The notes below the pieces were generated by a model, which was not told the origin of the DNA, did no database searches, and saw only the letters and a list, made by a program, of their open reading frames with translations. DNA of 64,000 nt from Stieleria magnilauensis. GTDB lineage: Bacteria; Planctomycetota; Planctomycetia; Pirellulales; Pirellulaceae. Of the stretch, positions 29,187 through 57,144 are shown piece after piece. Both the position numbers and the translations under genes were made by a program. Where the stretch lies: the NCBI GenBank assembly GCA_007753675.1, contig CP036432.1, positions 6,112,394-6,176,393 of the forward strand. The letters run 5' to 3'. Each line of letters begins with the position of its first letter. Position 1 is the stretch's first letter.

Positions 29187-29314
29187 CGATCCACTCCTTG
29201 AGTTTTTGATGTTGTCCCCAACCTCCAGAGTCTATCAAAGTCTGCAACGCTGAGATACCATGCTGCTAAGCACTAACCACCCAGCCGTCCGGCTTCGAAC
29301 GGCGATCAACTCGA

Positions 29315-31230: not shown

Positions 31231-31303
31231 CTCCCCCGGCAGGACTCGAACCTGCGACAAGGCGGTTAACAGCCGCCTGCTCTACCAACTGAGCTACAGG
31301 GGA
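31231..31303 (-). tRNA. tRNA-Asn (anticodon GTT)
   Basis: A full cloverleaf reads on the - strand. The acceptor stem TCCCCTG pairs with CGGGGGA; the D arm is GCTCAGTTGGTAGAGC; the anticodon stem GGCGG/CCGCC carries loop CTGTTAA, giving GTT; the T arm GCAGGTTCGAGTCCTGC is canonical. The discriminator base is G at 31231 and CCA is not encoded. The island genes lie directly beyond its 3' end. Confidence 0.97.
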
Positions 31304-40521: not shown

Positions 40522-43500
40522 ATGCAGACGTCGTCGCCAATCAAGCCAATCGCGTTGGTCGGCATGGCGTGTCGGCTGCCAGGGGCCGATGATCTGGACG
40601 GCTATTGGAGGGTGATTCGCGATGGCGTCGCGACCGCTCGGCCGCTTCCACAAGCTCGTTTCGACCGATCGCTGTACTTTGATCCGCGAAGGGGCATCCC
40701 CAATCGCTCCTACTGCGACATCGGGTGTTTGGTCAATGAAAACGCCCGTGGCCGGCACTTCGACTCGCTACCCGCATCGGTTCATGCCTGTCCCGAAGTG
40801 GCTTACCGGACGTTGTGCGATGTGGCGGCGGAGGCCTTGGACGATGCCGGAGTCGAACTTTGCCCGTCCGAGCGACGCTGCGGCGGCGTCTACCTGGGAC
40901 ACTCCCGGAGTAGCGGCTTGGCGGGCGATCTGGCCTATGGGACTTGCATCGCACAGTCGGCTCGGTTGCTCGGCGATGTGGAATCGTTTCGCGCGTTGAA
41001 CGTCGATCATGCGCGGGTGATCGACGAACTGGTCACGGAAGTGCGTCGAGACATGCCGCATCGAGACGAACAGGGGCGTCCCACCTTGGGTCCACACGCG
41101 GCCTCCGCGATGTTGGCGGACACTTTTGCGATGGGCGGTCCCTGCATGACGTTCAATTCCGCCTGTGCGTCGTCGCTGAGCGCTCTCCATCACGCGGTAT
41201 TGGCATTGCAGCAGGGTCGCATCGAGATGGCGCTGGTCGGCGGGGCGTCGGTCTGTCATTTCGAAACCCTGGTGATGTTCTCCCAGGCTCAGTCGCTGAG
41301 CAGCGTGATGTCCCGCCCGTTCGACGAGGATGCCGACGGTCTGGTCGTCGGCGAAGGCTACGCGGTGGTGATCCTAAAAACGCTTGAGCAGGCGGTCCGC
41401 GACGGCGATAGGATTCACGGGGTCATACGTGGCATCGGGGTCTCGTCCGATGGCAAAGGCAAGAGCCTGTGGGCGCCGCGCAAGGAAGGCCAGATCGTCG
41501 CCATCCGCCGGGCCTATGGCGATGAGCTGAAGATCGGAAATCTACAATACATCGAAGCGCACGCCACATCCACTCAGCTCGGTGATGCCACGGAAGCCAC
41601 GGCGTTGGCGGAGGCGTTGAGACTTCCGGCCGACCGTCGGATTCCGATCGGCAGCGTCAAAGCGAATATCGGTCACACGCTGGAGACCGCTGGTCTGGCG
41701 GGGCTGATCAAAGCCGTGCTCTGCATGCGTCACCAGACGATCGCACCGGCGGTCAACGTCCGTCAGTTGAACCAGTCGATCGACTGGGGATCGCTGCCCT
41801 TCTATGTGCCGATGCAAGCCGAGCACTGGCCCGAGCCGGCCGATGGCATGCCGCGTCGCGCCGCCGTCAACGCGTTCGGCATCGGCGGTTTGAATGTCCA
41901 CGTGGTCCTGGAACAGTTCGTCGGCGACGGATCCCAGGCGGCGATGCATGCCGGTGTGGATGCCACGCAAGCGACCGAACGTCGGCAACCCATCGACAAC
42001 GTCTACCGCACGGGGCCATCCTGCAGTGACGCCATCGCCGTGATCGGACGCGGCACAGTGTTGCCAGGCGCGTTGAACGTCGGTGCGTTTGCCAAGTTGT
42101 TGGTCAGCGGAGACGACCCCAAGGGGCCGATCCCCCAGCATCGCCTCGATCCCGAGATCTACCTCGATCCCTCCCAGCCCAGACATTGGCACTGCTTGAA
42201 CAACCTGGCGGGGGTCGTGCGGGGATTTCAATACGATTGGCGCAAGCACAAGATTCCGCCCAAGCAGATCGCCCACGCCAACCCGCTGCAGTTCATGATC
42301 TTGGATGCGGTCGACCAGGCCTTCAGTGAAGCCGGATTAGACCGTGAAGTGACCGATCGCATCGGCGTGGTGGTCGGTTCGCCGTTCGGCGGCGAGTTCG
42401 CAACCCAGTTGCTGATGGGATTGCGATTGCCCGAATTCCAACGTCGTCTGACGCGTTTGCTATGCCGGCTCGGGTGCGATCCCCGGCAGTGCGAAGCGGT
42501 CAGCCGGCAGTATGCCGAAACGCTGATCCAGGCGCTGCCGGCGCTGCTGGACGAAACCGGCAGCTTTACCAGCAGCAGTCTGGCGTCACGAATCACCAAA
42601 TCGTTCAACCTGATGGGCGGGGGCGTCGCCGTCGACGCCGGCAATTGTTCGTCCGCGGCGGCATTGATGTGCTGCGTCGATCAACTCGCCAGCGGTGCCT
42701 GCGACATGATGGTCTGCGTCGGCGGGCAGGAAGACCTCAGTGCGACCTTTCTGGAGCGGCTGGGGTTGACCGGTCTGCTCGCCAAGGGGGCGCCCCGATC
42801 GCCGCTGGACGCCGCGTCCGGAGGGTTGGTGCCGGCGGAGGGTTGTGGGGCGTTGCTGTTGATGCGGCTGGCCGACGCAAAACGACAAAAACGCAAGGTT
42901 TTGGGTATCATCCAAGGGGTGGGGGTCGCCACCGCCGACAGCCCGTCCGACGCGTCCGAACGCGCGGTCGACGACGCGTTGCGGCGGACGACGCGTCAGG
43001 GCCAATCACTCGCAGCGGGTGACGTCGCGCGGATCGAAACCACATCGGTCGCCTGTCAACGGCGAACCGCAGAGGAATTGGATGGGATCTACCACGCCTA
43101 CGCCGAACTCGCCCGGCAACGTCCCATTTCCCTCGATTGTCTGATGGCACAAACTGGTCACCTCGGAGCCGCCTCGGCGATCGCCGCGCTGATCAAGTCG
43201 ACTCTGGAACTTCAACAACTGAAAACAACGGCCACGTTCGGACTGACGCGTGCGTTGCCGTTGATCGAATCCACCCCGCTGTTCGACGTCGCATCCCAGC
43301 CCCGTCCGCTGGAAGCGTCCGACCACAGCGGCCGCCTCGTCACCGCTGTTCACAACGCCGAACGTCGAACCGCCTATCACATCCTTCTCCAACGAGATGC
43401 GAAAGTGCATGCTCCCAGCAAACCCCAGGCCCCAGTGACCGCCGACGCCTCGTACGATTCCCGCGTCGTCGACGGCATCACCATCGTCGACGCAACGCAA

Positions 43501-45777
43501 CGCCGAAAGGAATCGATGCGAGACAAGGCGATGCGTCAGTCCGTCGCCACGTCGGGTTCGTCGTCGCGTGCTTCCGTGGCCGTCAGCGACGTTCGCCAGA
43601 GCGTCGCCCCAGCGCCGACCACTTCAGCGCCGGCTTACGACAGCGACGTTGAGTCTGCGGCGACAGACACAGCGGCGGCGGGTCTGTCCGACGAAGCACT
43701 GAAAGAGTTTTTGACGCGTTTTGTCGTCGAACAAACCGGCTATCCGCCGGAGTTCGTCGCGATGGACGCGGACTTGGAAGCGGATTTGGGAATCGATTCG
43801 ATCAAAAAAGCTCAGATGTTCGGCGAACTGGGCGAACATTTTTCGATCACCCCTGACGAATCCCTCACGCTGGACGACTTCCCCACGCTGCAGCATATCT
43901 TCGACTACCTCGCCACATCGAATCGATCATCGACTTTACCCGTCGAATCGAATCACGACTCCGTTGCCACCGCGGTCGCGCCACCCGATCTAATCGAGAG
44001 CGCGCAGAGCACCGCGAACCGCCGGACCTTATCAGACGATCCGCCGCATGGCGCGAGCTTGCGGGCAGCCGATCCGCCGCCCAATCCGAGCCATCGATCA
44101 ACACCCGACCGCCCCGATCATGCGTCGGCCGTTCCAACGGACGATCAACACGATCGACCACTGGATCTGATCCCCGACGCCAAACGGATCAGCCGCACCA
44201 AGGATTTGTTGGACCTGGCGGGGCTGTCGATGCCGTATTTCGCCGAACACGAATGCGTCACCCAAGACACGACGCGAGTCGACGGCAAACCCGTCGTCAC
44301 GTTCTGCAGTTCCAACTACTTGGGAATGTCCGGAGACCCCATCGTCTCGGCGGCCGCCAAAGACGCGATCGATCGCTACGGCACCAGTGTTTCGGCAAGC
44401 CGCCTGATCGCGGGCAAACCGTTGCACCGCGAACTGGAAGACGAATTGGCGACGTTCCTGGGCGTCGAAGCGACGTTGGTTTTTTCGTCGGGCTACGCCG
44501 CGAACGAATCGATCATCGGGCATCTGTTCGGCCCCGGCGATTTGATCATTCACGACTCGCTCGCCCACAACTGCATCATCCAAGGCGCCGAACTGTCGGG
44601 GGCACAGCGGCTGAGTTTTCCGCACAACGACAGCGGGGCGTTGGATCGTCAATTGCAACAAATTCGGCACAAGTATCGGCGCACATTGATCGCGATCGAG
44701 GGCGCTTACAGCATGGACGGCGATCATCCGGACTTGCCGAAGTTTCTGGACATCAAGCGACGGCACGACGCTTTTCTGTTGGTCGATGACGCCCACGCCA
44801 TCGGCACGATGGGTACGACGGGTCGCGGCAGCCCCGAGTTCTTCGATCTTGATCCGAGCGAGATCGACTTGTGGGTCGGAACGCTCAGCAAGGCGCTGGG
44901 CAGTGGCGGAGGATTCGTCGCCGGCAGTCGCGAGCTGGTCGAGTACCTCAAGTTCAGCACGCCCGGGTTCATCTACACGGTCGCTCTCTCACCGGGCAGC
45001 GCCGGAGCGGCCTTGGCGGCGCTGCGTCTGTTGCAGCAACAACCCCAGCGGGTTACCAAACTGCAACGCAACGCCCGGCTGTTGCTCGAACTGGCCAGGC
45101 AGCGTGGGTTGGATACCGGCCCGGCGGGCGACACGCCGGTCGTTCCGATCATGGTTGGAAACTCGCACACCGCGCTGCTGCTCTCACGTCGTTTGCTCAG
45201 CCGCGGCATCGATATCCAACCGATCGTCTATCCGGCGGTGGAAAACGACGCGGCGCGGTTGCGTTTCATGATCACCGCACGGCACAGCGAGGAACAAATT
45301 CGCAGAACAATTGATGCTCTGGCCGAAGATCTGAAAGAAGTCCAATCCGAAAGCGTTCCGATCGCCCAGTGGCAATCGGTCCTGTCCGGCAAGAGCCCCA
45401 TGCCGTTGGATCGGGATCGATCGGGGGAATCGGACGCGGCCGCGAACCGGCGGATGCCAACCGACGATCAACCGTCTGACGCAAGCCTGCGGACACCATC
45501 GACGTCGACCGGGCAACACGATTGGACGAAGACGGACTTGCAGGATTACTTGATCAATTTCATCGTCGAACAGACCGGCTACCCTCCGGAGTTCGTCGAG
45601 ATGGATGCCGACATGGAAGCGGACCTGGGGATCGATTCGATCAAGAAGGCGCAGTTGTTCGGAGAACTGAGACAGCACTTTGAGATCACGCCGGATGAAA
45701 ACCTGACGCTGGACGATTTCCCGAGCTTGCAAGAAGTTTTTGACTACATCGCCGCCCAAGTAGGAATTGAGGCATGA
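40522..45777 (+). CDS. Pfa-like polyketide/lipid synthase with alpha-oxoamine synthase domain
   Basis: A 1751-residue multidomain enzyme. KS1 (~8-450) has the full triad Cys215 (NSACASS), His347 (EAHATST) and His385 (NIGHT). KS2 (~495-930) is degenerate: Cys709 (GNCSS) and His880 remain, but the first His is Thr841 (IETTS), so it probably acts as a chain-length-factor partner. ACP1 (~1055-1130) carries Ser1093 in GIDSIKKAQ. Residues ~1224-1615 form a PLP-dependent alpha-oxoamine synthase (SNYLGMSG, SGYAANESI, DDAHAIGTMG, Lys1457 in TLSKALGS). ACP2 carries Ser1706. The AOS would release the chain by decarboxylative condensation with an amino acid. ATGA-coupled to the phosphopantetheinyl transferase. 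Confidence 0.9.
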   Translation: MQTSSPIKPIALVGMACRLPGADDLDGYWRVIRDGVATARPLPQARFDRSLYFDPRRGIPNRSYCDIGCLVNENARGRHFDSLPASVHACPEVAYRTLCDVAAEALDDAGVELCPSERRCGGVYLGHSRSSGLAGDLAYGTCIAQSARLLGDVESFRALNVDHARVIDELVTEVRRDMPHRDEQGRPTLGPHAASAMLADTFAMGGPCMTFNSACASSLSALHHAVLALQQGRIEMALVGGASVCHFETLVMFSQAQSLSSVMSRPFDEDADGLVVGEGYAVVILKTLEQAVRDGDRIHGVIRGIGVSSDGKGKSLWAPRKEGQIVAIRRAYGDELKIGNLQYIEAHATSTQLGDATEATALAEALRLPADRRIPIGSVKANIGHTLETAGLAGLIKAVLCMRHQTIAPAVNVRQLNQSIDWGSLPFYVPMQAEHWPEPADGMPRRAAVNAFGIGGLNVHVVLEQFVGDGSQAAMHAGVDATQATERRQPIDNVYRTGPSCSDAIAVIGRGTVLPGALNVGAFAKLLVSGDDPKGPIPQHRLDPEIYLDPSQPRHWHCLNNLAGVVRGFQYDWRKHKIPPKQIAHANPLQFMILDAVDQAFSEAGLDREVTDRIGVVVGSPFGGEFATQLLMGLRLPEFQRRLTRLLCRLGCDPRQCEAVSRQYAETLIQALPALLDETGSFTSSSLASRITKSFNLMGGGVAVDAGNCSSAAALMCCVDQLASGACDMMVCVGGQEDLSATFLERLGLTGLLAKGAPRSPLDAASGGLVPAEGCGALLLMRLADAKRQKRKVLGIIQGVGVATADSPSDASERAVDDALRRTTRQGQSLAAGDVARIETTSVACQRRTAEELDGIYHAYAELARQRPISLDCLMAQTGHLGAASAIAALIKSTLELQQLKTTATFGLTRALPLIESTPLFDVASQPRPLEASDHSGRLVTAVHNAERRTAYHILLQRDAKVHAPSKPQAPVTADASYDSRVVDGITIVDATQRRKESMRDKAMRQSVATSGSSSRASVAVSDVRQSVAPAPTTSAPAYDSDVESAATDTAAAGLSDEALKEFLTRFVVEQTGYPPEFVAMDADLEADLGIDSIKKAQMFGELGEHFSITPDESLTLDDFPTLQHIFDYLATSNRSSTLPVESNHDSVATAVAPPDLIESAQSTANRRTLSDDPPHGASLRAADPPPNPSHRSTPDRPDHASAVPTDDQHDRPLDLIPDAKRISRTKDLLDLAGLSMPYFAEHECVTQDTTRVDGKPVVTFCSSNYLGMSGDPIVSAAAKDAIDRYGTSVSASRLIAGKPLHRELEDELATFLGVEATLVFSSGYAANESIIGHLFGPGDLIIHDSLAHNCIIQGAELSGAQRLSFPHNDSGALDRQLQQIRHKYRRTLIAIEGAYSMDGDHPDLPKFLDIKRRHDAFLLVDDAHAIGTMGTTGRGSPEFFDLDPSEIDLWVGTLSKALGSGGGFVAGSRELVEYLKFSTPGFIYTVALSPGSAGAALAALRLLQQQPQRVTKLQRNARLLLELARQRGLDTGPAGDTPVVPIMVGNSHTALLLSRRLLSRGIDIQPIVYPAVENDAARLRFMITARHSEEQIRRTIDALAEDLKEVQSESVPIAQWQSVLSGKSPMPLDRDRSGESDAAANRRMPTDDQPSDASLRTPSTSTGQHDWTKTDLQDYLINFIVEQTGYPPEFVEMDADMEADLGIDSIKKAQLFGELRQHFEITPDENLTLDDFPSLQEVFDYIAAQVGIEA
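44014..44066 (-). repeat. GSRQTADH-type palindromic element, copy in PKS linker 1
   Basis: Reverse-complement copy of the element at 34163-34217: GCGAACCGCCGGAC at one end and GGCGCGAGCTTGCGGGC at the other. It encodes NRRTLSDDPPHGASLRA in the linker between ACP1 and the oxoamine synthase domain, where extra sequence is tolerated. Confidence 0.65.
45442..45493 (-). repeat. GSRQTADH-type palindromic element, copy in PKS linker 2
   Basis: A second reverse-complement copy, beginning GCGAACCGGCGGATG and ending GCAAGCCTGCGG, in the linker between the oxoamine synthase domain and ACP2. It encodes NRRMPTDDQPSDASLRT, closely parallel to the copy at 44014. Confidence 0.65.
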
Positions 45778-46565
45778 GCAGTCGTGGCGAAGAATGTTCG
45801 ACGTCGGTCAGCATGCGGCTGCATCAACGCGAGTCCGCATCACCGTGGCCGTCGGTGCTGCAGTCGTGGCTTTCGCCAACCGAGCTTGAGGAACGGGACT
45901 GCTTTCGAGCGCCGAGTCGGCGTCGTGACTGGATCAGTGGACGATGGTGCGCGAAACAACTTCTGTGCCAGATGTTTTCCCAGACGGCCGACTCGCTGCT
46001 CGAGTGGCAGATTGTTTCACGCGTGTCGAAGCGCCGAGGCTGCCGCCCCACCGTCTTTCGAAATGGGATTCAACAACCGATTGATCTGTCGCTCGCCCAC
46101 TGTGCGTCGATCACCGTTGCCGTCGCAGGTCAGCGTCGCCTGTCAGTGGATCGACGCGATGCCCCTGGGATTGGTGTCGATGCGGTCGATCGGACTGAAC
46201 TGCCCGACAGCTTTGCGCGGACCTGGTTCTCGACCTCGGAGCGCCGCCTGTTGCAAGACCATCGCTGGCCGATTGCCGCGGGATGGGCTGCGAAAGAGGC
46301 GGCGTTTAAGGCTTGCAACGCAGGCGAATCGTTTCGGCCGGGTTGTTTGCAGATCGTCGATGTCGACGCTGACGGATGTCGGGTTCAAGATGAAGCCCAA
46401 CGCATGGCGGACGTGCACGTCGACACGCGAGATGACGCCATCATTGCGATTGCCTTTGCAAATTCACTCTCCAAAAGTCCTCCCCTCGCTTCGCTCGACC
46501 CTCCTGCCAGGAGGGTGACACTGAACCCTATTCGACCTTCGTCGGGGAGAAGGGAGCCAGTGTGA
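45774..46565 (+). CDS. 4'-phosphopantetheinyl transferase, C-terminus extended by a repeat element
   Basis: A 263-residue protein of the Sfp/AcpS superfamily. It has SLAHC, GIGVDAVDRTE (Asp136) and WAAKEAAFK (Lys174, Glu175, Lys178), the Mg- and CoA-binding motifs. It transfers the phosphopantetheine arm from CoA to the ACP serines of the adjacent synthases. Start ATG overlaps the PKS stop (ATGA). The last ~30 residues (from about SPPLASLDPPARRVT) are encoded by a palindromic repeat and have no counterpart in the family; the functional protein probably ends near residue 235. The substrate pair is inferred from coupling. Confidence 0.88.
   Translation: MSSRGEECSTSVSMRLHQRESASPWPSVLQSWLSPTELEERDCFRAPSRRRDWISGRWCAKQLLCQMFSQTADSLLEWQIVSRVSKRRGCRPTVFRNGIQQPIDLSLAHCASITVAVAGQRRLSVDRRDAPGIGVDAVDRTELPDSFARTWFSTSERRLLQDHRWPIAAGWAAKEAAFKACNAGESFRPGCLQIVDVDADGCRVQDEAQRMADVHVDTRDDAIIAIAFANSLSKSPPLASLDPPARRVTLNPIRPSSGRREPV
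46474..46560. repeat. Palindromic element overlapping the 3' end of the transferase gene
   Basis: Contains the hairpin ACCCTCCT (46498-46505), loop GCC, AGGAGGGT (46509-46516), flanked by CCTCCCCTCGCTTCGCTCGA and a GTCGGGGAGAAGGGA partner arm. This is a common planctomycete repeat style. It may double as a terminator or RNA-stability hairpin. Confidence 0.7.
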
Positions 46566-46629
46566 GAGACGTAGACGCCGAGACCTGCGACACCGTTATC
46601 GACACAGAGCAGCACACCACGAACACACC

Positions 46630-47394
46630 ATGATTGATCTTACAGAAAAAGTCGCTTTGGTCACCGGAAGCTCGCGTGGGATCGGTCGCTCGGTGGCGAT
46701 CAAGTTGGCCGAGGCGGGCTGTGACGTGATCGTCAATTACGTCACGTCGCAGAACGAGGCGTTGGCGACCGCCAAAGAGGTTCAATCGCTGGGCCGCCGA
46801 TGCTGGATCGTTCGCGCCGACGTCAGCGAAGAAGACGATGTTCAATCGATGTTTGAATTCATCGAGCAAGAAATCGGACAACTGGACATCTTGGTCAGCA
46901 ACGCGGCGACCGGCGGATTCCGCCACTTGCTGGACTCCAACCCCAAACACTTCGCCGCGGCGATGAACACCAACGTGCTCGCCCTGATCCACCTGGTCAA
47001 AGCAGCCGTGCCACTGTTGGAAAGGGCGCAGGACCGCGGCAAAGTCATCGCGATTTCCAGTCACGGATCCCACATGGCGCTGCCCATGTACGGCTTGATC
47101 GGGGGATCGAAAGCGGCGTTGGAAAGCATCACGCGACACTTGGCGTTGGAACTGGGGGATCGTCGCATCAACGTCAACGTGGTTAAATCGGGGCTCGTCG
47201 AAACGGATTCGACGCGTCGCATCCCGGGGGCGGAAAAAATGTTTGCCGCCCGAACGGCCAAGACCATGATGGGAAAACGACAGCTGGAGGCCTCCGACGT
47301 CGCCAATGCCGTCGCCTTTTTGGCCAGCCCGATCAGCGATTTGATTCAAGCGACAACCATCACCGTTGACGGGGGAGCCGCCGCACACGTGTAG
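46630..47394 (+). CDS. FabL-like enoyl-ACP reductase (SDR family)
   Basis: A 254-residue short-chain dehydrogenase. The Rossmann motif is TGSSRGIG (12-19), and the active site is Ser143/144, Tyr154 and Lys161 (YGLIGGSK). Several blocks fit FabL, the enoyl-ACP reductase III group, better than FabG: SNAATGG where FabG has NNAG, a long loop IPGAEKMFAARTAKTMMGKR, and DLIQATTITVDGG. A trans-acting enoyl reductase would fill a gap, because neither synthase contains an ER domain. FabG-type ketoreductase activity remains possible. It sits between the two synthase genes on the same strand. Confidence 0.8.
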   Translation: MIDLTEKVALVTGSSRGIGRSVAIKLAEAGCDVIVNYVTSQNEALATAKEVQSLGRRCWIVRADVSEEDDVQSMFEFIEQEIGQLDILVSNAATGGFRHLLDSNPKHFAAAMNTNVLALIHLVKAAVPLLERAQDRGKVIAISSHGSHMALPMYGLIGGSKAALESITRHLALELGDRRINVNVVKSGLVETDSTRRIPGAEKMFAARTAKTMMGKRQLEASDVANAVAFLASPISDLIQATTITVDGGAAAHV

Positions 47395-47407
47395 TCGCAC
47401 ACGCATC

Positions 47408-47477
47408 GCCGCGTGCCAGTCGCTGCGTGCCAGTCGCTGCGTGCCAGTTGCTACGTGCCAGTCGCCGCGTGCCAGTC
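47408..47477. repeat. Five tandem copies of a 14-bp unit
   Basis: Consensus GCTGCGTGCCAGTC, copies starting at 47408, 47422, 47436, 47450 and 47464, with one or two differences each. It lies between the FabL-like gene and the second synthase; unit length is not a multiple of three and the synthase start (47494) is downstream, so it is non-coding. Confidence 0.85.
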
Positions 47478-47493
47478 GCTGCCGAGCCGAACC

Positions 47494-50400
47494 ATGAACG
47501 TCCACCACCATCAAGACTCTGACACGCCGCTTGCCGTGATCGGAATGGCCTGTCGTTTGCCCGGCGCGGACGACTTGGATGAATACTGGTCGCTGATGAT
47601 CGAAGGCCGCAGCGCGATCGCAGAACTGCCTCCCGAGCGGTTGGATCAACGACGTTACTACGACCCTGAAATCGGACGCTTCGGCAAGACGTACTCCAAA
47701 ATCGGCGGCATCGTCGGCAACCGCAAGACGCCGATCGAGCCGTTTCGTCTTTCAGACCACGACATCGACAACGCGGACCATTCGCATTTGGATTTGTGTC
47801 AGGTCGCCGGTCAGGCGATTCGCGATGCCGGCCTCGATCCGCAGGCCACCGGGTCGACACGCGGTGGCGTGTACGTCGGCCATCAACGTGGTTCCAACTT
47901 GATCGGCGAATTGACACTCGGCGTGATGGCCACCCAGGCGATGGATTGTCTTCGGCAAACGGATTACGTTTCACAAATGTCCGCCCACGAGCAAGCCGCC
48001 TTGGTCGAGGAAATGGCTCATCGGGTGCGTCGTGATCTGCCCGAGCGACGTCCCGGCGGCGGCCCGTTTTTGGAAAGCTCCGAAGCGTCGCGGCTGATCT
48101 CCAAAGCGTTCGGGCTGGACGGTCCTTGTTTGTCGATCAACGCGGCGTGCAGTTCTTCGCTGGTCGCGCTGGCCGCCGGCGCCCATGCGCTACAAATGGG
48201 TGACATCGACTTGGCCGTGATCGGCGGGCTGTCTTATTGCAAGCTGGACGCATTGATCTTGTTTTCGCAAGCGCAGACCGTCAGCGGAACCGGTTCACGT
48301 CCGTTTGATGCCGACGCGGACGGACTGGTCGCCGCGGAAGGCTACGTCGTCGCGGTGGTCAAAACGCTCGAACGTGCCTTGGCGGACAAGGATCCCATTC
48401 GTGCGGTGATCCGTGGCATCGGTGTTTCCTCCGACGGCAAAGGCAAAAGTCTGTGGGCGCCGCGGCGTGAAGGACAAATCGCCGCCGTCCGCCGCGCCTA
48501 TTCGGCCGACGTGGCGCCGAGCTCGGTTCAGTATGTCGAGGCCCACGCGACCTCGACACCGGTCGGTGATTCGACCGAAATCAACAGCTTGGCCGAGGCG
48601 TTTAACGAATCTTTCGAAAGTGAACTGAATCAAAAGATTCCGATCGGCAGCGTGAAAGCCAACATCGGCCATACGCTGGAGGCCGCGGGACTGGCCGGGC
48701 TGATCAAAACGGTTCTGGCGATGCAGCACCGAATGATTCCTCCGGTGATCAATTTGCGTCAGCCGAACCCGAAAGTGGATTGGGCGGCTGCGCCGTTTCA
48801 ACTGCCGACGACCGCGATCCCCTGGCCGGATCCGCCGCCGGGCAGCCCCCGGCGGGCAGGCGTCAACGCGTTCGGCATTGGCGGATTGAACGTCCACGTC
48901 GTTCTGGAAGAACACTCGACCGCGACGCCAAGGCGTTTTCGATCGCCCGGCGAACAGTCCGCCGACGACCGGTCGATCGCCGTGGTCGGCGCCGCGCTGC
49001 TGACGCCCGGTGCGCGAACGATCGCTCAGTTTTGGGATCTGCTGTCGACTGGGCAGGATCCCAAGGTGCCCGTGCCGGACGATCGCTGGGATGTCCGTCT
49101 GGACCACGGGGACGAAGCCAAGCGTTGGGTGGGCGGGTTCATCCAAGATTACCAATACGATTGGCGACGGCATCGCATTCCGCCGAAACAGGTCGCCAAC
49201 GCCGACCCGCTTCAGTTCATGATCCTGGACACGGTCGCCCAAGCGCTCGAAGACTCCGGATACAAGTCCAAGCTGGACCACGAGCACACCGCGGTCATCG
49301 TCGGCAATCTCGTCGGCGGCGAGGCCAGTTCTCAGCTGCTGGTCGGGCTGCGGTTGCCGGCGCTGCGTGAGGTGATCGAAACGGTGCTGAGCGAGAAAGG
49401 CGTTCCACCGGCGCAGATCGCCGAGACGTCGCAGCGATTTGCCGAGGTGCTGTTGGAGCGGATGCCGGCCTTGTTGGACGAAACCGGTGGATTCAGCAAC
49501 AGCTCGTTGGCCTCGCGGATCACCAAGACCTATGACCTGATGGGCGGTGCGTTCGCCCTCGACAGCAGCGACAACTCTTCGATCATGGCGGTCAACACAG
49601 CCCGAGGGTTCTTGCTGCGGGGCGGGTGCAAGATGGTGATCGCTGCCGGAGCCCAGCGTGACCTCGGCCCCCATGCGTTCGAATGTCTTCGCCTGGCATC
49701 GCGGCTGAGTCCGTCCGGTCGTGTCCGATCGCTCGATCAATACTCCGACGGCATGGCGCCGGCCGAAGGCGTCGCGGTCGTGTTGCTGAAGAAATTGAGT
49801 GACGCCAAAGCCGACGGCGACGAAATCCTGTCGGTGATCCGCGAGATCGGTGTCGCGCGTCACGACGATCAACAAACCGCACAGCGACTGGCCATCGGTC
49901 GCGCCCTTTCTGGAGCGGAGGTCACACCCGAACAAGTCTCCGCCGTCGACCTTTCCGCCAGCGGTGTTGCCGAGGAAGACCGTGACGAATTTCATGCGAT
50001 CGCTGAGGCGTACGCTGTGCAGCGTGAGCGACCACTTCATCTGCGCTCGCTGGCGGGACAACTCGGTCACGCCGGCAGCGCAGCGGGAATGATTGCGCTG
50101 ATCAAGTCGTCGTTGTCGTTGAAGCACCTTCAATCGCCGGTCGGTCTGCCTGCCGATCAGCCGATCGACGCCTTGTCCCACCAAGCGTGGTGTGAATTCC
50201 CTGTTGCAAACGAGGACTTGCCGCTGGTCGATCCCTCCGGCCGCGTCTTTTCCGCACTCAATTGCTACGCCAGGGGCATGGCATGTCACGTCGTGATCGA
50301 GCGGGGACAGCCCGTCCCGAGCACGTCGTCTCAATCCGGTCGCGGCAACACGATTCGCTCTGTGTCCAATCCCGATCACGGCTATCGAAGCTGGATCGCT

Positions 50401-53400
50401 GAAGCCGACTCGCTGTCCGAACTGATCGACAACGCCAAACAGATTGCCGCGGGCGGGTCCGTCGATTCGGCCGCCGCACGGCACCGCACGGTTTCCGACA
50501 GCATTGCTTCCAACCGCACTCTCCGGCACGGGCTGGCGATCGTCTATCGATCTGAAGATGAACTTCGCAAGCGCGCGGGGCTGTTTGTTTCCCGCCACTG
50601 CGACCCCAAACGCGCTGCCCTGTTTGAAAGCCAGGGCATCTACTGTGTCGAACGAACGCGGCGACCGATGGTGGCGTTCTTGTTTCCAGGTCAAGGATCG
50701 CAGTACCCGTCCATGCTGACGGATCTGGTTTGGGAAAATCCCGTTGCCGCCGCGGCCGCCGCACGCATCGATGGCATCCTGCAATCCTTGGACTACCCGA
50801 GTTATCGAGACTTGGTCGTCGACCAGGCGGATCGCCTCGGAACGGACGTCTGGCGCACCCAACTTTCATTGCTAGTCGCGGATTCGATCCTGATGGAAGT
50901 GGTCGACGCGATGGGCATCAAGCCCGATCGCATTTCGGCACACAGCTATGGAGAGTTCCCGGCATTGGTCGCAGCCGGTGCGTGGGATTTCCGAACCGCG
51001 GCGTTGGCGACGTTTCATCGTTGTCGGTTGATCACCGAGTCCACACAAATCGACGGCGCGATGCTCGCAGTCGACTTGGATCGCAATGAGGCGAGTCAAC
51101 ACTGCAACGCCTATCCGGGCGAAGCCTTCGTCGCGAACTGCAACAGCGACCGACAAACCGTCATCGCCGGCAGTCGTGGCGTGATCGAGAGCTTGAAAAC
51201 GCGGATGGCCGAAGCCGGGGTCCACGCCAAAATCCTCGGCGTGCCGCGTCCCTATCACACACCGTTGATGGCACCGATTCAACCGGCGTTTCGACAGATC
51301 CTCGACCAACTGGAAATCGCCCCGCCGCGGACTCCGTTGTTGAGCAGTGTCGACAACCGCTACGTCGCCGAACCGGACGCGATCCGCGAAAACTTGGTCC
51401 GTCAGTTGGTGCAGCCGGTGCTGTACACCGACCAGATCCGGCGACTGGCCGGCGAAGGCGTGAACGTGCTGGTGGAAATCGGCCCCAACCCGGTTCTGAC
51501 ACGGCTGCACGAACAGATTGTCGGGCAGATCGTCGGCGACGAATCGTTGTCGATTGCGACGGACCACAGAAAGCGTCACCCGGGTGAGTCCCTGACCCGG
51601 CTGGACGCCGCATTGCGGGCCGCCGGTGTCCCGGTCGGCGGATCGGACGGCATGGAAACACGGTTGCGGCGTCCGGGCTCCGAGGGTGAGCTTCCGTCAC
51701 CGGCGTCAGAATCCGATGGGCCCGTAGGCTCGCGCCAAACGGCTGATCATCAACAGACATCAGCCGGTTCGCGCCTGCGTCCGGGCTTCGGGAGTGATCT
51801 TTCGTCGCCGGCGCCAGATTCCGAAGCGGGGCTTCAGCTCTTGTTCTTGGAGGGTTCGCCTCGCGCGATGGGGGCCGCACACGGTCAAGCCATGGCGGTG
51901 GCGATACGCCGCATGCTCGATCGTTACCAAGAGATTGCAACGGGCAAGTTGGGCAGAACACTGCCGGATCTGTCGCTCGCCAAATCGATGTTGGACAAAC
52001 TGGTCGACGAATCGGCGTCCGAGGAAATGCGTGGGATGGCTGACGCTGCGGGCGTCCCCGTCGACGCGCTGTTGGAACACAACCTATACGCTTATCCGGA
52101 GATCGGCGCCGGCTGCACGCAAATCCTGGCCGGCCGACCATCGTCTCCATCACGATCGGGCGGACAACCACGCCAGACACAGTGGCTGCACGCGGCCAAT
52201 GAAGACATGCCGCTGGGGCTGTTTCTTCGCGACACGATGCGTCGCTGCGTTCAAGTCCGGCGACCGACCAATGGATTGCCGCACGTGCTGTTCTCCGCCG
52301 CAGGCCACGTGTTGGGGATCAACGGCGTCAATGCAGCCGGGTTGGTGATCACCGGCTCGATGTTGTTGGACCGGCCCCGCCGCAGCGAAACGCTTGACGG
52401 ACTGCTGCACTCGATCGTCATCCGTCGCGTTCTGGAAACTGCCGAATCGGTCGACGACGCCGTCGACATGCTGCGACGCACGCGTACCACCGGCGGCTGG
52501 GGGATGTGCGTTTCAGACGCGTGCGGGAGCGATCCGGCCTACGTCGAATACGATTGCGGAACGTTCCGATCCGAGCGGCTGAATGACCATCGGCTGGTCA
52601 GCAATCATGCCCAACTGCTACCGCCCGTCATCGACACACCCAAGCACTCGCTGTTGCGTCAACAACGACTCGAATCACTGTGGCGGCAGAAAGGCGACGA
52701 GGTTCCATCGACCGCGATGCTGCAGCGATGGTTGAGGGATCAGTACGACGAAGGCCGTGGTCGGGAAGTCCGCTTTGCGACCATGAACACCATCCGGCGA
52801 GTCGACAACCAGGTCAGCGTTCTGTTTGATATCCGTTCCGCACGGGCCTGGGCAACGCCGGGCAATCACGAAACCGGGGCGGACGCGAATCAGTTTTTCG
52901 AACTCGACTTGCAGGAATTGATCGGACTGCAGCCGGGCGGGCGACAACCTCGACATACTGCCGCGAAGCCGAATGCCGGGAAAAAACCAGAGTCGACAAC
53001 CGACCGAGTGATCTCCTGGAAAGAATTTTCGCAACGCTCCACCGGTGTCGACGGTCGATCACCGCTCGATGATGCGGGCAAGGTCTGCAATCGATTCGCA
53101 TTGCGGTGTATCGAAGTTCCGCCGGCTCGCCGGGCAGAGGCGGCGACGGCACTCCACGGCGGCGTCGTGTTACTCGGTGACAACGCCGCTGCCGACACAC
53201 TTGCCCAAAAGCTGCAAGGTTCGGGTCTGCGTTGTCTGCATCTGCGCCGGCTGGACGACGTGACCGCCGCCGTGTCCGAACTGGAAACCTTTTGTCACAG
53301 CGGTGTGCCGACGAACCTGTTCTTGCTGACGGCATGGGATGAACACGCCGCCCAGGGTGTCTCGACGGAGCATTGGCAACAACGCCGACAGAGCGGCATG

Positions 53401-55545
53401 TTGGTTCCGTATCAAATCTGCCAGCGTTGGCTGAAGCTGTTGAACGACAACCAGCTAGTCGGCGAGGGAACGATCGTCGGCGGTGTCCGTCTGGGCGGAC
53501 TGTTGGGCTTCGACGACCGCGTGACCTCGCCCGAAGGTGGATTCGCGACAGGGCTGATCAAGGGTCTGTTGATCGAAATGGGTTTCGCCGCACAGACTTC
53601 GTTTCGAGCCCGTGTCGTCGATTTTGATGCCGATGCCGATCCCGGTTTTGTGGCGGCTCGATTGATCGACGAATCCGCCGCCGCAGCCGGACGGACGGCG
53701 GAGATCGCTTATCGCGGCGACAAACGTCATGCCGTCGCGCCCGTGATTCTGCCCGTCAACCAACTGCCCACCACCACGGCGGATTTCGGTCGGGTCTGGG
53801 TGATCACCGGCGGCGCCCGAGGCGTCACCGCAAAGATTGCCAAAGCCATCGGTCAGCAATTCGGCGTCAAGCTGCACCTGATCGGTTCAAGTCCCCTACC
53901 GGAAATCGACGACGGTTGGCGAAACTTGGACCCCGACCAGCGAAAGCATTTACGTGCGGAAGTCGTTCGCAAGGCGCTCGAGGCGGGGGAGGTCCCGATC
54001 GATGCCTGGTCGCGCGTGGAAAAGGCCTTGGAGATCGACGGAAACCTGCGCGACTTCGCCGAGTCGGGACTGGACGTCACCTACCACGCCTGTGACGTCA
54101 GCGACCATCGCGCGCTGGCACAGTTGTTAGACCTGATCCGTCGAACGGACGGTTCAATCGACGGCATCGTGCACGGCGCGGGCTATGAAAAAGCGACCAG
54201 CTTTACCAAGAAGAATCTCTCGTCGGTGCAGCGGACGATCACCTCGAAAGTCGACGGCGCGATCTCACTGATGGAATTGACGCGACAAGACGACTTGAAG
54301 TTTTTTGCCGCGTTTGCATCCATCTCGGGTCGCTTCGGTGGCGTCGGGCAAACCGATTACTGTTTGGCCAACGAACTGCTGTGCAAACTGGTCAGCTGGT
54401 TCCGCCAGACGCGTCCCGAGGTTCATGCGGTCGCCTTTCATTGGCCCTCTTGGGATGAAGTCGGAATGGCCGTGCGCCCCGAATCTCGACTCGCCAAGAC
54501 GCTCATCGACGCCAAGTACATGCCCGTCGAAGAAGGCGTTGGACACTTCATCGACGAATTGCGACGCGGTTGCCCCGAAGCGGAGGTCTTGATCACGGAT
54601 TGGGAACGCTACAAACGCTACTACACCGACCAGTACGTCGCGTCCCTCAGCCCCTACCCGATAATCGACCGCGTCCAGTGTGGAGATGATGAACTTGGCG
54701 GCAGCATCACGACCTCGCACGTGGTCGATCCGGTCAATGACAACTTCCTCAGTCAGCACCTGTTGCGAGGCCGACCGATCTTGCCGTTCGTCGCCGCCGC
54801 GGAAGCCTGTGCCGAAGCGGCGAGTCTGCTGACCGGTGGCCGAGCAGTGACAACGATCGAAAACTTTCGCATTGCCGAAGCGATGCGGTTTTTCACCGAC
54901 CAGCGTCAGGAAATTCGTGTCCGCGCCGAGCGAACCGGTGACCAAGTCCGTTGTTCATTGCTCAGCGATTTTAAAAACCGCAAAGGACAGGTGCTCCGCA
55001 AAGATCGTGTCCACGCCGACTGCATCATCCGATCGGACCAGCCCGATGATCGCGCGGACGAACCGGTTGACTTTCCCGATGTCCCGTACATTCCGGTCCA
55101 TTACCTGGATCACAAATTGTCGGTGTATCACGGCCCGATCTATCGCCAGCTGGAACAGTTTTATTATTCGCAGCAGCAGTCGTGGGCGAAAATCAGAATT
55201 GCCGACCCGGCGGAGTTCCTTTCGGCCGATAGCGGCGATCGCATCATGCTGCCCTGTGTGCTGATCGACACCTGCGTGTTTTCGGCGGGAGTTCATGAAT
55301 GGACGATTGATCGGACGGCGATCGCACTGCCGCATTCGATTCGTCGATTGCGGATGTTCGCGGCACCCGTGGTCGGCGAGCAGGTCACAGCCCGGATCGT
55401 CCCGCTCGAATCGACCGACAAACACGCGACGTTCAACATCGACGTCTGGGACCAACACGGACGTCCGGTGCTGCAGATCGAAAACTATCGCGCGAATGTG
55501 CTTGTTGCGACGATCCCACTCGATCGGGCCCAATCAGCCGATTGA
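47494..55545 (+). CDS. Pfa-like polyketide/lipid synthase: KS-KS*-AT-C45-KR-DH
   Basis: A 2683-residue enzyme from ATG 47494 (the in-frame start at 47413 lies in the tandem repeat). KS1 (~12-460) has Cys219, His351 and His393. KS2 (~475-880) has lost the nucleophile (Asn694 in SSDNSSI) and the first His; only His859 remains. AT (~1059-1355) has FPGQGSQYPS and Ser1151 (AHSYGE). Residues ~1448-1760 are a C45/Ntn acyltransferase-like domain with GCT at Cys1541, the Gly-Cys autocleavage site. KR (~2099-2370) has Ser2278 and Tyr2289. DH (~2405-2680) has His2422 (HLLRGRPILP) and Asp2592. No ACP of its own is visible; it must use those of the first synthase. Confidence 0.9.
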   Translation: MNVHHHQDSDTPLAVIGMACRLPGADDLDEYWSLMIEGRSAIAELPPERLDQRRYYDPEIGRFGKTYSKIGGIVGNRKTPIEPFRLSDHDIDNADHSHLDLCQVAGQAIRDAGLDPQATGSTRGGVYVGHQRGSNLIGELTLGVMATQAMDCLRQTDYVSQMSAHEQAALVEEMAHRVRRDLPERRPGGGPFLESSEASRLISKAFGLDGPCLSINAACSSSLVALAAGAHALQMGDIDLAVIGGLSYCKLDALILFSQAQTVSGTGSRPFDADADGLVAAEGYVVAVVKTLERALADKDPIRAVIRGIGVSSDGKGKSLWAPRREGQIAAVRRAYSADVAPSSVQYVEAHATSTPVGDSTEINSLAEAFNESFESELNQKIPIGSVKANIGHTLEAAGLAGLIKTVLAMQHRMIPPVINLRQPNPKVDWAAAPFQLPTTAIPWPDPPPGSPRRAGVNAFGIGGLNVHVVLEEHSTATPRRFRSPGEQSADDRSIAVVGAALLTPGARTIAQFWDLLSTGQDPKVPVPDDRWDVRLDHGDEAKRWVGGFIQDYQYDWRRHRIPPKQVANADPLQFMILDTVAQALEDSGYKSKLDHEHTAVIVGNLVGGEASSQLLVGLRLPALREVIETVLSEKGVPPAQIAETSQRFAEVLLERMPALLDETGGFSNSSLASRITKTYDLMGGAFALDSSDNSSIMAVNTARGFLLRGGCKMVIAAGAQRDLGPHAFECLRLASRLSPSGRVRSLDQYSDGMAPAEGVAVVLLKKLSDAKADGDEILSVIREIGVARHDDQQTAQRLAIGRALSGAEVTPEQVSAVDLSASGVAEEDRDEFHAIAEAYAVQRERPLHLRSLAGQLGHAGSAAGMIALIKSSLSLKHLQSPVGLPADQPIDALSHQAWCEFPVANEDLPLVDPSGRVFSALNCYARGMACHVVIERGQPVPSTSSQSGRGNTIRSVSNPDHGYRSWIAEADSLSELIDNAKQIAAGGSVDSAAARHRTVSDSIASNRTLRHGLAIVYRSEDELRKRAGLFVSRHCDPKRAALFESQGIYCVERTRRPMVAFLFPGQGSQYPSMLTDLVWENPVAAAAAARIDGILQSLDYPSYRDLVVDQADRLGTDVWRTQLSLLVADSILMEVVDAMGIKPDRISAHSYGEFPALVAAGAWDFRTAALATFHRCRLITESTQIDGAMLAVDLDRNEASQHCNAYPGEAFVANCNSDRQTVIAGSRGVIESLKTRMAEAGVHAKILGVPRPYHTPLMAPIQPAFRQILDQLEIAPPRTPLLSSVDNRYVAEPDAIRENLVRQLVQPVLYTDQIRRLAGEGVNVLVEIGPNPVLTRLHEQIVGQIVGDESLSIATDHRKRHPGESLTRLDAALRAAGVPVGGSDGMETRLRRPGSEGELPSPASESDGPVGSRQTADHQQTSAGSRLRPGFGSDLSSPAPDSEAGLQLLFLEGSPRAMGAAHGQAMAVAIRRMLDRYQEIATGKLGRTLPDLSLAKSMLDKLVDESASEEMRGMADAAGVPVDALLEHNLYAYPEIGAGCTQILAGRPSSPSRSGGQPRQTQWLHAANEDMPLGLFLRDTMRRCVQVRRPTNGLPHVLFSAAGHVLGINGVNAAGLVITGSMLLDRPRRSETLDGLLHSIVIRRVLETAESVDDAVDMLRRTRTTGGWGMCVSDACGSDPAYVEYDCGTFRSERLNDHRLVSNHAQLLPPVIDTPKHSLLRQQRLESLWRQKGDEVPSTAMLQRWLRDQYDEGRGREVRFATMNTIRRVDNQVSVLFDIRSARAWATPGNHETGADANQFFELDLQELIGLQPGGRQPRHTAAKPNAGKKPESTTDRVISWKEFSQRSTGVDGRSPLDDAGKVCNRFALRCIEVPPARRAEAATALHGGVVLLGDNAAADTLAQKLQGSGLRCLHLRRLDDVTAAVSELETFCHSGVPTNLFLLTAWDEHAAQGVSTEHWQQRRQSGMLVPYQICQRWLKLLNDNQLVGEGTIVGGVRLGGLLGFDDRVTSPEGGFATGLIKGLLIEMGFAAQTSFRARVVDFDADADPGFVAARLIDESAAAAGRTAEIAYRGDKRHAVAPVILPVNQLPTTTADFGRVWVITGGARGVTAKIAKAIGQQFGVKLHLIGSSPLPEIDDGWRNLDPDQRKHLRAEVVRKALEAGEVPIDAWSRVEKALEIDGNLRDFAESGLDVTYHACDVSDHRALAQLLDLIRRTDGSIDGIVHGAGYEKATSFTKKNLSSVQRTITSKVDGAISLMELTRQDDLKFFAAFASISGRFGGVGQTDYCLANELLCKLVSWFRQTRPEVHAVAFHWPSWDEVGMAVRPESRLAKTLIDAKYMPVEEGVGHFIDELRRGCPEAEVLITDWERYKRYYTDQYVASLSPYPIIDRVQCGDDELGGSITTSHVVDPVNDNFLSQHLLRGRPILPFVAAAEACAEAASLLTGGRAVTTIENFRIAEAMRFFTDQRQEIRVRAERTGDQVRCSLLSDFKNRKGQVLRKDRVHADCIIRSDQPDDRADEPVDFPDVPYIPVHYLDHKLSVYHGPIYRQLEQFYYSQQQSWAKIRIADPAEFLSADSGDRIMLPCVLIDTCVFSAGVHEWTIDRTAIALPHSIRRLRMFAAPVVGEQVTARIVPLESTDKHATFNIDVWDQHGRPVLQIENYRANVLVATIPLDRAQSAD
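51721..51774 (+). repeat. GSRQTADH-type palindromic element inside the second synthase
   Basis: 54 bases, nearly identical to 34163-34217, encoding PVGSRQTADH...SAGSR in the linker between AT and C45 domains. It is flanked by two similar ~50-base sequences (51669-51719 and 51775-51825, both starting GCGTCCGGGCT). Confidence 0.8.
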
Positions 55546-55692: not shown

Positions 55693-57144
55693 TCACGCGG
55701 ATGAAGACGAGCGGCCGTCCAACCACACGCCGTGGAATCCTGCCGGAACACGTTGCGGCATCGGGATGCGAGCGATGACGGGATCGTTGTCGAATCGTCG
55801 GCAATCGAGAATCACGAATTCGGATCGATCGTCCGCTTCGTCGTGCACCATCGAAACCAGATAGCCGTCGTCTTCACTGACTTGGTTCGGTCGGGGCACG
55901 AAGATGCCTTCACCGGCAAGCTGACTGGGTGCAAATTCGTGACGCTGCGATGTGTTTGCGATCAGATCGTATTTGACCAATGCCGGAGCGTCGTTGGAGA
56001 GAAACGAGGCTGCGTAGCCGTATCGACAGGGCGCCCCAACCAAAGCATCGTCCACGCGGGGGAATTCAGCGGGTCGATCGTCGACAGCGCCCTCGACGAC
56101 TCTGCCCGACTTGATATCGATCACCCAGCGATACATGGACGCATCGAGCTGCAACTGGTCGCGGGATGTTGACGAGCGATTCAACACGCCGGGTGCACCG
56201 GGGAATCGGCAAGCATAGAGCGTCAACGTGTCGTCGTTTTCCCAGGCGTTTAACACGTGAAACAGAAAACCCGGCTCGACATCAAACCAGCGCAACTGGT
56301 CGCCCGAGCCGTAACGGGGCAAGATGCCGATGCGAGCCCCGCGTTCGGCCCGGTAGCGTAGCATCGCCCCTCCGACAAGCGGCATCAGTGGGCGCACCAG
56401 CATCGGAAAATCGAAGAAGATCGTATAGCGTTGGGTGATGGCAAAATCGTGCATCATCACAATTCTGCCGACGGGGATCGTCGTCTGATGGACCAGCCGG
56501 CCTGCGCGATCCAAGATTCCATATCGGACACTGTTGCCACGCAGCGAATTGCCGAAGAACAACAGTTCGCCGGTGACAGGATCAATCTTTGGATGAGCGG
56601 TCACGGCATGCTGTTGCTTCCCGAAAAAATTGTCGGGGCCGACCGTCCCGAGGTCTTCTGGGCGGATTTCATAAGGGGATCCTGCTTCCCAGAGTGCGAA
56701 GAGTTTGCCGTGGTGCCAGACGAGCGAGGTGTTGGCTTTGTTGAAAAAATCGGCGCCGCCCTTTCGAGCCCCCTGAGCGAGCGTTTGCAGGTGTTCAAGC
56801 GGGCGAGCATTGACATAACTTGGCGAATGGTTGCGTCCGCTCTGTTGTTGCTTCTTCCATGACGATGTTCGAACAAATCGATTCAGGTAGCTCGCCTTTC
56901 CGTCTTCGATGCGAACGCCATGCAACATGCCGTCACCGTCAAACCAATGGTAGTGCGAAGCCGGCGGGAACATCGGGTTGGGGCCGTTGCGGACCCACAT
57001 GCCGTTGAGATCCCGAGGCAGTTTACCGACTACGGGCAAGTCGGATCTTGCGATCTCGTCCTGGGTAGGTGCAAGTGCGCCGGACAGATAAGCGTTCGGC
57101 ATTTGGGTCGGAAAGGACGATGCGGTCGAGACGGGTTCGGACAT
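55693..57144 (-). CDS. Carotenoid oxygenase (RPE65/CCD family)
   Basis: A 483-residue protein that cleaves double bonds of carotenoids, stilbenes or related compounds using a non-haem Fe(II). The four iron-ligand His of the seven-bladed propeller are visible: His184 (TAHPKID), His232 (MMHDFAIT), His296 (FLFHVLNAWE) and His471 (GFHGVW). LNGMWVRNGPNP and HWFDGDGMLH at the N-terminus are family blocks. Length is normal and no signal peptide is seen. Converges with the synthase operon and has its own upstream region shared with the next + gene. Substrate cannot be read; any link with the polyketide is speculative. Confidence 0.92.
   Translation of the reverse strand: MSEPVSTASSFPTQMPNAYLSGALAPTQDEIARSDLPVVGKLPRDLNGMWVRNGPNPMFPPASHYHWFDGDGMLHGVRIEDGKASYLNRFVRTSSWKKQQQSGRNHSPSYVNARPLEHLQTLAQGARKGGADFFNKANTSLVWHHGKLFALWEAGSPYEIRPEDLGTVGPDNFFGKQQHAVTAHPKIDPVTGELLFFGNSLRGNSVRYGILDRAGRLVHQTTIPVGRIVMMHDFAITQRYTIFFDFPMLVRPLMPLVGGAMLRYRAERGARIGILPRYGSGDQLRWFDVEPGFLFHVLNAWENDDTLTLYACRFPGAPGVLNRSSTSRDQLQLDASMYRWVIDIKSGRVVEGAVDDRPAEFPRVDDALVGAPCRYGYAASFLSNDAPALVKYDLIANTSQRHEFAPSQLAGEGIFVPRPNQVSEDDGYLVSMVHDEADDRSEFVILDCRRFDNDPVIARIPMPQRVPAGFHGVWLDGRSSSSA

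Follow-up and report, generated by a model that had tools for sequence, protein, structure and literature searches.

A 64,000-nucleotide stretch of the genome of Stieleria magnilauensis (GenBank assembly GCA_007753675.1, contig CP036432.1, positions 6,112,394 to 6,176,393; hereafter the window) contains two megasynthase genes, P0001 and P0002, whose products very likely constitute a lipid synthase that is fed by acyl carrier proteins (ACPs), terminated by an alpha-oxoamine synthase (AOS) domain, and productive of an amino-ketone base; this base is probably sphingoid in kind. The locus is real and appears intact. The partner subunit P0002 includes a C45 N-terminal-nucleophile acyltransferase-like domain; judged by sequence, this domain belongs to the core of a broader family of Pfa-like synthases found mainly in planctomycetes.

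Organization and conservation of the synthase locus

In P0001 (1751 aa), Pfam recovers two ketoacyl-synthase stretches, an Aminotran_1_2 match (residues 1257-1600, E 1.7e-44) and two PP-binding stretches, giving the order ketosynthase (KS), apparently inactive ketosynthase (KS*), ACP, AOS, ACP; in P0002, it recovers two ketoacyl-synthase stretches, Acyl_transf_1, AAT/PF03417 (1596-1818, E 1.7e-10), a ketoreductase (KR) and a polyketide synthase (PKS) dehydratase (DH), giving KS-KS*-AT-C45-KR-DH, where AT denotes the acyltransferase. A first-pass annotation of this DNA had read the same domain orders, with a phosphopantetheinyl transferase (PPTase) and a FabL-like reductase between the megasynthases, and Pfam bears it out. 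No AT, KR or DH was found by Pfam in P0001, and no ACP in P0002. Since AT, KR and DH occur in this cluster solely in P0002, and ACPs solely in P0001, both should act together; they would form one machine, a two-subunit iterative Pfa-like lipid synthase that, judged from its domains, would build a reduced long acyl chain with the help of the FabL-type reductase acting in trans, the PPTase completing the set. The features are the following (PLP, pyridoxal phosphate; SDR, short-chain dehydrogenase/reductase; RND, resistance-nodulation-division):

40522..45777, plus strand: P0001, subunit 1, with KS (about residues 6-415), KS* (501-960), ACP (1051-1150), AOS (1225-1625) and ACP (1671-1751)
44194..45396, plus strand: alpha-oxoamine synthase domain of P0001 with PLP Lys1457 and an ACP on either side (best solved match 3A2B, residues, tree)
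45774..46565, plus strand: 4'-phosphopantetheinyl transferase (Pfam ACPS, 3.6e-13), overlapping the P0001 stop codon
46630..47394, plus strand: FabL-type enoyl-ACP reductase, an SDR with Y-x6-K (motif, NCBIfam, PDB match)
47494..55545, plus strand: P0002, subunit 2, KS-KS*-AT-C45-KR-DH, 2683 aa from ATG; the open reading frame opens at GTG 47413
52015..52962, plus strand: C45 N-terminal-nucleophile acyltransferase-like domain of P0002, Gly-Cys at residues 1567-1568 (GTG numbering)
38105..40309, minus strand: MMPL/HAE3-like RND transporter (Pfam MMPL), candidate lipid exporter, divergent from the synthase operon
55693..57144, minus strand: RPE65-family gene, convergent, beside the synthase locus

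The start of P0002 is most likely the ATG at 47494, which gives the same 2683 aa as database entry P0003; the extra N-terminus of the GTG-start version overlaps a 14-bp tandem repeat (5.5 copies, window 47406-47482) that lies just 5' of the ATG and holds the frame open to the GTG. Residue numbers in P0002 nevertheless follow the GTG start, and the Cys1541 of the first-pass annotation (ATG numbering) is Cys1568 here. Among solved structures, the reductase is matched best by the FabL-type enoyl reductase 3OIC (183.5 bits; the runner-up scores 123.6); the FabL model is also its best match in NCBIfam, yet scores below its cut-off, and the protein carries a Y-x6-K motif, which we take to be of the enoyl-reductase type.

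Catalytic residues were compared in alignments of P0001 orthologues (6 rows, of which P0065 is a fragment without KS) and P0002 orthologues (7 rows), in which the rows most distant from the window are still 72% identical in the AOS (P0066) and 58% in the C45 domain (P0009). The KS Cys/His/His, both ACP serines and the AOS Lys/His/Asp are unchanged, as are, in the P0002 rows, the Ser and His motifs of the AT, the Gly-Cys and N-E-D of C45, and the KR and DH motifs; both P0001 ACPs carry GIDS. The KS* domains of P0001 and P0002 are without the first catalytic His and without the Lys; at the Cys site, P0002 KS* has N in five rows, Q in one and L in one, and P0001 KS* retains a Cys, whose distance from the preceding Asp is greater by one residue than in KS. 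Against two orthologues (Rhodopirellula sp. SM50 and S. sedimenti), dN/dS is 0.09 for the AOS, 0.15-0.19 for C45, 0.10-0.22 for the P0002 KS and both KS*, 0.18-0.20 for the AT and 0.35-0.40 for the PPTase, and reaches 0.60-1.24 in three inter-domain linkers; the P0001 KS was left out, as each of the two orthologue loci is truncated at that point and the match was to a paralogue. Because dN/dS is low in the AOS and C45 domains and high in the linkers, the domain pattern is not due to chance. Within the genus, 6 of 14 genomes have the C45 synthase, and the same six also have the Pfa-type AOS (94-100% identity); the nearest named matches to the window proteins come from Rhodopirellula sp. SM50, Stieleria neptunia, S. 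mannarensis and S. maiorica.

The divergent RND gene had been singled out in the first-pass annotation. An MMPL gene adjoins the synthase locus divergently in all three genus genomes with the upstream side in view (the window, G395 and G397), and occupies a like position in two genomes of another genus, G339 and G121; the NCBIfam HAE3 model TIGR00921 scores below its cut-off. The RPE65-family gene probably lies outside the core cluster; it is found beside the orthologous locus in G397, and an aldose epimerase gene takes its place in G395. The genome (G000) is a single contig of 10.77 Mb, and the plasmid records contained no place covering 80% of P0002. Elsewhere in the window, positions 12001-32000 have a G+C content of 0.52-0.56, lower than the roughly 0.60-0.63 of the synthase surroundings, and include an NgoFVII-type restriction-like gene (29315-30892); this segment is a possible acquired island.

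The oxoamine synthase domain, its relatives and its origin

By sequence, the closest solved match of the AOS domain is the serine palmitoyltransferase (SPT) 3A2B (1.3e-68). The residues expected of the family, namely PLP Lys1457, the His in HDSLAHN, VDDAH and RLRF, are identical in all six orthologue rows; they correspond to the PLP Lys, the ring-stacking His, the Asp and the substrate Arg, respectively. In a tree of 42 rows, the window AOS falls inside a 33-row clade together with AOS domains of the FAAL type (fatty acyl-AMP ligase), the highly reducing PKS type, the Sga-like type and the Pfa type, although most placements within the clade are weak and the rows include several long ones. The clade includes FAAL-ACP-AOS and PKS-ACP-AOS proteins, and its FAAL-type, PKS-type, Sga-like and Pfa-type layouts indicate at least four arrangements in which an AOS of this type receives its chain as acyl-ACP. 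The window AOS thus belongs, as far as its sequence tells, to a clade of carrier-protein-fed oxoamine synthases, and an amino-ketone base is therefore likely; the sphingoid-like base proposed in the first-pass annotation gains support as likely from this placement, from the intact Lys1457 and from the flanking ACPs.

The amino acid substrate is predicted to be serine, with a 3-ketosphinganine-like amino-ketone as the likely product. A domain that takes glycine or alanine would instead give a 1-deoxy or nor-type aminoketone, a polyketide amine and not a sphingolipid analogue. The PDB search that ranks SPT first places 2-amino-3-ketobutyrate CoA ligase (KBL) almost level (232.5 vs. 235.2 bits), and a serine-specific residue was not found in the AOS; both points speak for glycine or alanine. 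Yet the best solved match is an SPT, and the domain groups with FAAL-, PKS- and Sga-like AOS; SgaB is reported to make 3-ketosphinganines with a near-exclusive preference for serine (PMC12134224), although the place of the SgaB-like row within the clade is unsettled. On balance, glycine or alanine appears distinctly unlikely, and serine is retained as the predicted substrate.

The AOS-bearing subunit most likely arose, to judge from the KS sequences, when an AOS was inserted, once, into a companion subunit of the KS-KS*-ACPn kind. Searching with the KS* of P0001 returned many KS-KS*-ACPn proteins of 1.0-1.6 kaa without AOS, and none of the 107 newly listed among the best 120 of 838 matches carries one. 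A KS tree of 55 rows requires a single change (support 74) for the five subunits that bear an AOS; it nests them inside part of the companion group (forks at 83-94, none of them starred) and separates them from the P0002-type KS. This single change and the nesting are the grounds for one insertion. The idea that P0001 is a recent copy of P0002 was rejected, as its KS groups with the AOS-less companions.

Other AOS genes occur in the genus and beyond. Each of the 14 genus genomes encodes a further AOS, 51-54% identical to that of the window, within a frame of 1,144-1,284 aa (in G401 with an internal stop); in G000, Pfam finds an AMP-ligase, an ACP and the AOS in one frame. This FAAL-ACP-AOS gene (C1:7414786; L108:9766-13248, minus strand) resembles AasR, AcpR and Spt in one protein, and its product is a candidate housekeeping sphingoid-base enzyme. 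In the genus member G404, where the window-type pair was not found, a Sga-like single-module PKS and an AOS (L111:6029-17231) adjoin genes for a Zn-dependent dehydrogenase, a metallo-beta-lactamase-fold protein and an HlyD-type protein. Frames of 2,541-2,609 aa contain an AOS in G339, G121, G205, G333, G327 and G381 (same family) and in G107 (another family); Pfam reads the G205 protein as KS-AT-DH-ER-KR-ACP-AOS (ER, enoyl reductase), and a domain search of five others agrees. Loci L117-L122 are of this kind, with single PKS-ACP-AOS proteins mostly of about 2.5-2.6 kaa. Downstream of the G107 gene lie DAGK_cat, SDR and CTP_transf_1 genes; in L120, the PKS-ACP-AOS gene is followed by CTP_transf_1, SDR and DAGK_cat genes, a neighborhood that suggests a phosphorylated sphingoid product. 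A link between the window locus and stieleriacine biosynthesis was considered and rejected: stieleriacines are assigned to NasY enzymes, and the word "polyketide" is absent from the text of that source as available (PMC12479983).

The C45 domain and its synthase family

The NCBIfam model C45_proenzyme (NF040521) matches the domain above its cut-off (112.5 vs. 85 bits), and the predicted structure (model m7aeffdd278e7, mean pLDDT 85.5) matches the isopenicillin-N-acyltransferase/acid-ceramidase fold, with an acyltransferase as the best Foldseek match. Model and alignment place Gly1567-Cys1568 where the first core strand begins, the expected self-cleavage site; in fold and Cys position, the first-pass assignment to C45/isopenicillin-N acyltransferase (IAT) enzymes with a Gly-Cys cleavage site is thereby upheld. 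A profile enriched with solo C45 rows reached acid ceramidase, N-acylethanolamine acid amidase (NAAA) and IAT among PDB sequences; a profile of C45 only (A1) gave mostly chance hits to repeat proteins and was discarded. In acid ceramidase and NAAA, the Arg of R-N-x-D is catalytic; this hydrolase-type Arg is absent from all 65 megasynthase and ACP-C45 rows, which have V, A, G, T, I or S instead. The C45 tree separates these rows, as a single group, from 19 solo rows (SH-aLRT 99); it omits P0003 (identical to the P0002 protein), P0061 (which covers half a domain), the L026 frame (from G339, which is represented otherwise) and three poor solo rows.

The distribution survey covered 392 genomes of the phylum, and 26 distinct C45-synthase loci were compared, with the duplicates L053 = G216 and L069 = G369 counted once; partner families were labeled by Pfam and NCBIfam for example genes, and by single-sequence searches with these examples for the rest. 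An AOS accompanies the C45 synthase in four loci (the window and L050-L052), GH3 in eight, a thioester reductase in five, a thioester reductase together with a class-III-aminotransferase-like gene in two and a class-III aminotransferase alone in one; in the remaining 6 of the 26, three of which (L056, L058, L059) end close by, a partner was not found. The 26 loci include 25 with an SDR matching the window reductase and 18 with a PPTase match. Six genomes other than G000 with a strong match to the C45 query (G216, G291, G152, G321, G283 and G369) gave no AOS hit reaching E 1e-80 among the few first-look candidates scored per genome; G339 and G121 have a degenerate C45 and AOS genes elsewhere in the genome. 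On this distribution, C45 as an AOS-specific add-on was rejected, and the idea that C45 is present because of the AOS was not borne out, with GH3, thioester reductase and/or aminotransferase as partner in 16 loci. Being a core domain of a wider family that mostly has other partners, C45 did not arise with the AOS; in terms of descent, the AOS was probably inserted into the companion subunit of a C45-synthase family with a variable head-group partner (GH3, thioester reductase, aminotransferase, AOS).

The loss of Lys1457 or of the C45 Cys from intact homologues, named in the first-pass annotation as evidence against its reading, is seen nowhere among the AOS-bearing orthologues (Lys in 6/6 rows, Cys in 7/7); across the whole synthase family, loss of the nucleophile does occur, in two lineages other than this one. 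At least two events removed the Cys, one in a Gly clade of eight rows and the other in the degenerate C45 of G339/G121. Losses with the context in view (G152b, G339, G121, P0050) all belong to thioester-reductase synthases, six further Cys-less rows lying outside that view; the Cys is kept in four thioester-reductase loci (G291, L057, G369/L069, L070), and no Cys-less GH3 or AOS locus appears among those with the site in view (L067 begins inside the domain). Since the Cys is lost where a reductase can release the chain, these losses hint at a role for C45 in releasing or transferring the chain, the domain being dispensable once the reductase does the releasing. The AOS releases the chain too, yet its C45 is intact, which favors a second job; from the two independent losses, this would be, for example, N-acylation of the AOS product.

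The same data admit a different function, which we regard as a serious possibility without expecting it: C45 would be a chain-release (thioesterase-like), deacylating or amide-forming domain whose substrate is not the AOS product; in this cluster it would release or transfer those chains not taken by the AOS, and the main product would be a free sphingoid-like base with no ceramide. All eight GH3 genes sit directly 3' of the reductase gene; in a search of nine genomes, GH3 genes were absent from four, including G000, and present in two copies in four others, three of which (G216, G321, G283) have one copy within the C45 cluster, while in G152 one lies about 5 kb from an ACP-like-C45 gene. These associations favor a release function, as do the confinement of nucleophile loss, where the context is known, to synthases with a thioester reductase able to release the chain, the six C45-synthase genomes without a close AOS, and the hydrolytic action reported for DobA on a carrier-protein-bound intermediate (PMC12154687). 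The retention of the Cys in all P0002-type rows despite release by the AOS, its retention in the four thioester-reductase loci, the single GH3 gene of G291, far from the C45 synthase, and the missing hydrolase-type Arg together with the acyltransferase as best structural match argue against it. A third reading, in which C45 is a structural relic here, as it seems to be in G339/G121, without a catalytic part, finds precedent in that degenerate domain and in the Gly clade, where the fold has outlasted the nucleophile; with Cys and N-E-D kept in the window and its orthologues, and the low dN/dS of the domain, it is very improbable.

Several family members depart from the megasynthase layout. L036/L037, L060, L061 and L062 encode proteins of about 500-540 aa in which an ACP-like N-terminal domain (a weak match) is fused to C45; by eye, the canonical DSL is missing from the G152a, L060 and L062 proteins. 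Two ACP-like-C45 genes are located near a Secretin_N-repeat protein of 2.4-2.7 kaa, and the one in G152 has a GH3 gene close by as well. A single chain of 3577 aa, P0050 (source eukprot), combines KS-KS*-AT-C45(Gly)-KR-DH with ACPs, a thioester reductase and a FabL-like reductase; it is close to the metagenomic P0049 and is a possible bacterial contamination of the eukaryote assembly. No description of a C45 domain within a megasynthase was met in the open-access literature surveyed, mostly by listing, and terms for PKS, PUFA (polyunsaturated fatty acid) or sphingolipid are absent from a planctomycete review (PMC12078418). Among papers listed for GH3, the relevant titles refer to glycoside hydrolases.

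Proposed scheme and comparison with known systems

The scheme that we favor, tentatively and as something short of probable when taken whole, is an AOS-terminated lipid synthase whose C45 domain adds a second acyl chain to give a ceramide-like lipid. The AOS between its two ACPs would end the chain by decarboxylative condensation of the acyl-ACP with an amino acid, most likely serine; C45 would cut the chain at Gly1567-Cys1568 and then move a second ACP-bound acyl chain onto an amine, in this cluster most likely that of the AOS product; and the MMPL protein would export the resulting lipid. In a fuller version, which is unlikely as it stands, this would be a complete ceramide-type synthase in one machine, with one KS-KS* pair making the AOS chain, the other making the C45 chain, and P0002 cutting itself into KS-KS*-AT and C45-KR-DH; more widely, self-cleaving aminolipid synthases with swappable head-group enzymes would exist, mainly in the Planctomycetota.

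A number of observations weigh against this scheme. The AOS falls below the curated SPT equivalog cut-offs (NF047600, 309.3 vs. 640; NF047599, 281.1 vs. 500). Six genomes, among them G152 with Gly at the nucleophile position, have C45 synthases and no close AOS among the few candidates scored per genome, so that the usual C45 acceptor is not an AOS product. The GH3 partners in eight of the 26 loci, if they work on free acids, would suit a hydrolytic C45 equally well. Self-cleavage inside the megasynthase is predicted from the modeled fold, and neither a ketosphinganine reductase nor a ceramide tailoring gene was found among the window genes examined. The free-standing C45 enzyme DobA is reported to strip an N-succinyl group from its intermediate, that is, to act by hydrolysis (PMC12154687), and on this account our confidence in the whole scheme was lowered slightly.

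The C45 enzymes that have been solved, IAT, acid ceramidase and NAAA, share the fold and have the nucleophile Cys where the mature beta chains begin; in contrast to the window domain, they were solved as free-standing proteins, and NAAA and acid ceramidase possess the R-N-x-D Arg that it is without. DobA, from diazo-metabolite biosynthesis, comes from a cluster with PKS genes, a further likeness, and differs as a separate enzyme from the C45 built into the megasynthase (PMC12154687). Pfa polyunsaturated fatty acid and secondary lipid synthases (types reviewed in PMC3098273) resemble the window locus in having KS and apparently inactive KS*, separate AT, KR and DH, several ACPs and a cluster PPTase; unlike them, the window has a FabL-type reductase, an AOS and C45. 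No PfaD-type enoyl reductase was found between or beside the synthase genes, where the FabL-type SDR is the sole enoyl-reductase-like gene, and both subunits score below the cut-off of the PfaA model TIGR02813 (417.8 and 608.2 vs. 1010.1 bits); the earlier label "Pfa-like" is fair as a likeness, and by these criteria the locus is not a Pfa synthase.

Zeamine-type secondary lipid synthesis likewise recruits a PLP-type domain to a PUFA-type synthase for the introduction of nitrogen into the chain, using aminotransferase, KR and thioester reductase domains and not an AOS; the words "oxoamine" and "C45" are absent from the main text of the source (PMC13291983). The SPT of Rhodobacteria, with its dedicated AcpR and AasR, is reported to prefer acyl-ACP over acyl-CoA as donor, but consists of separate proteins that load a ready-made fatty acid, with no chain-building synthase (PMC9386255). 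PKS-derived sphingolipids were reported in Pseudomonas in 2025; in SgaAB of Pseudomonas fluorescens MYb115, an iterative PKS (SgaA) feeds a separate oxoamine synthase (SgaB) to make long-chain sphingoid bases (PMC12134224). The window has no such discrete enzyme: its AOS is part of the KS-KS* subunit. What is new compared with the Pseudomonas case is this AOS built in between the carrier proteins of a Pfa-like synthase, with a domain of the penicillin-acyltransferase/ceramidase type in the partner subunit; should C45 cleave itself, autoproteolysis would be how a fatty-acid/polyketide megasynthase reaches its mature form. The broader finding is the family of megasynthases with a C45 domain and swappable head-group partners; one conserved synthase with interchangeable head-group enzymes leads directly to testable predictions on unknown planctomycete aminolipids.
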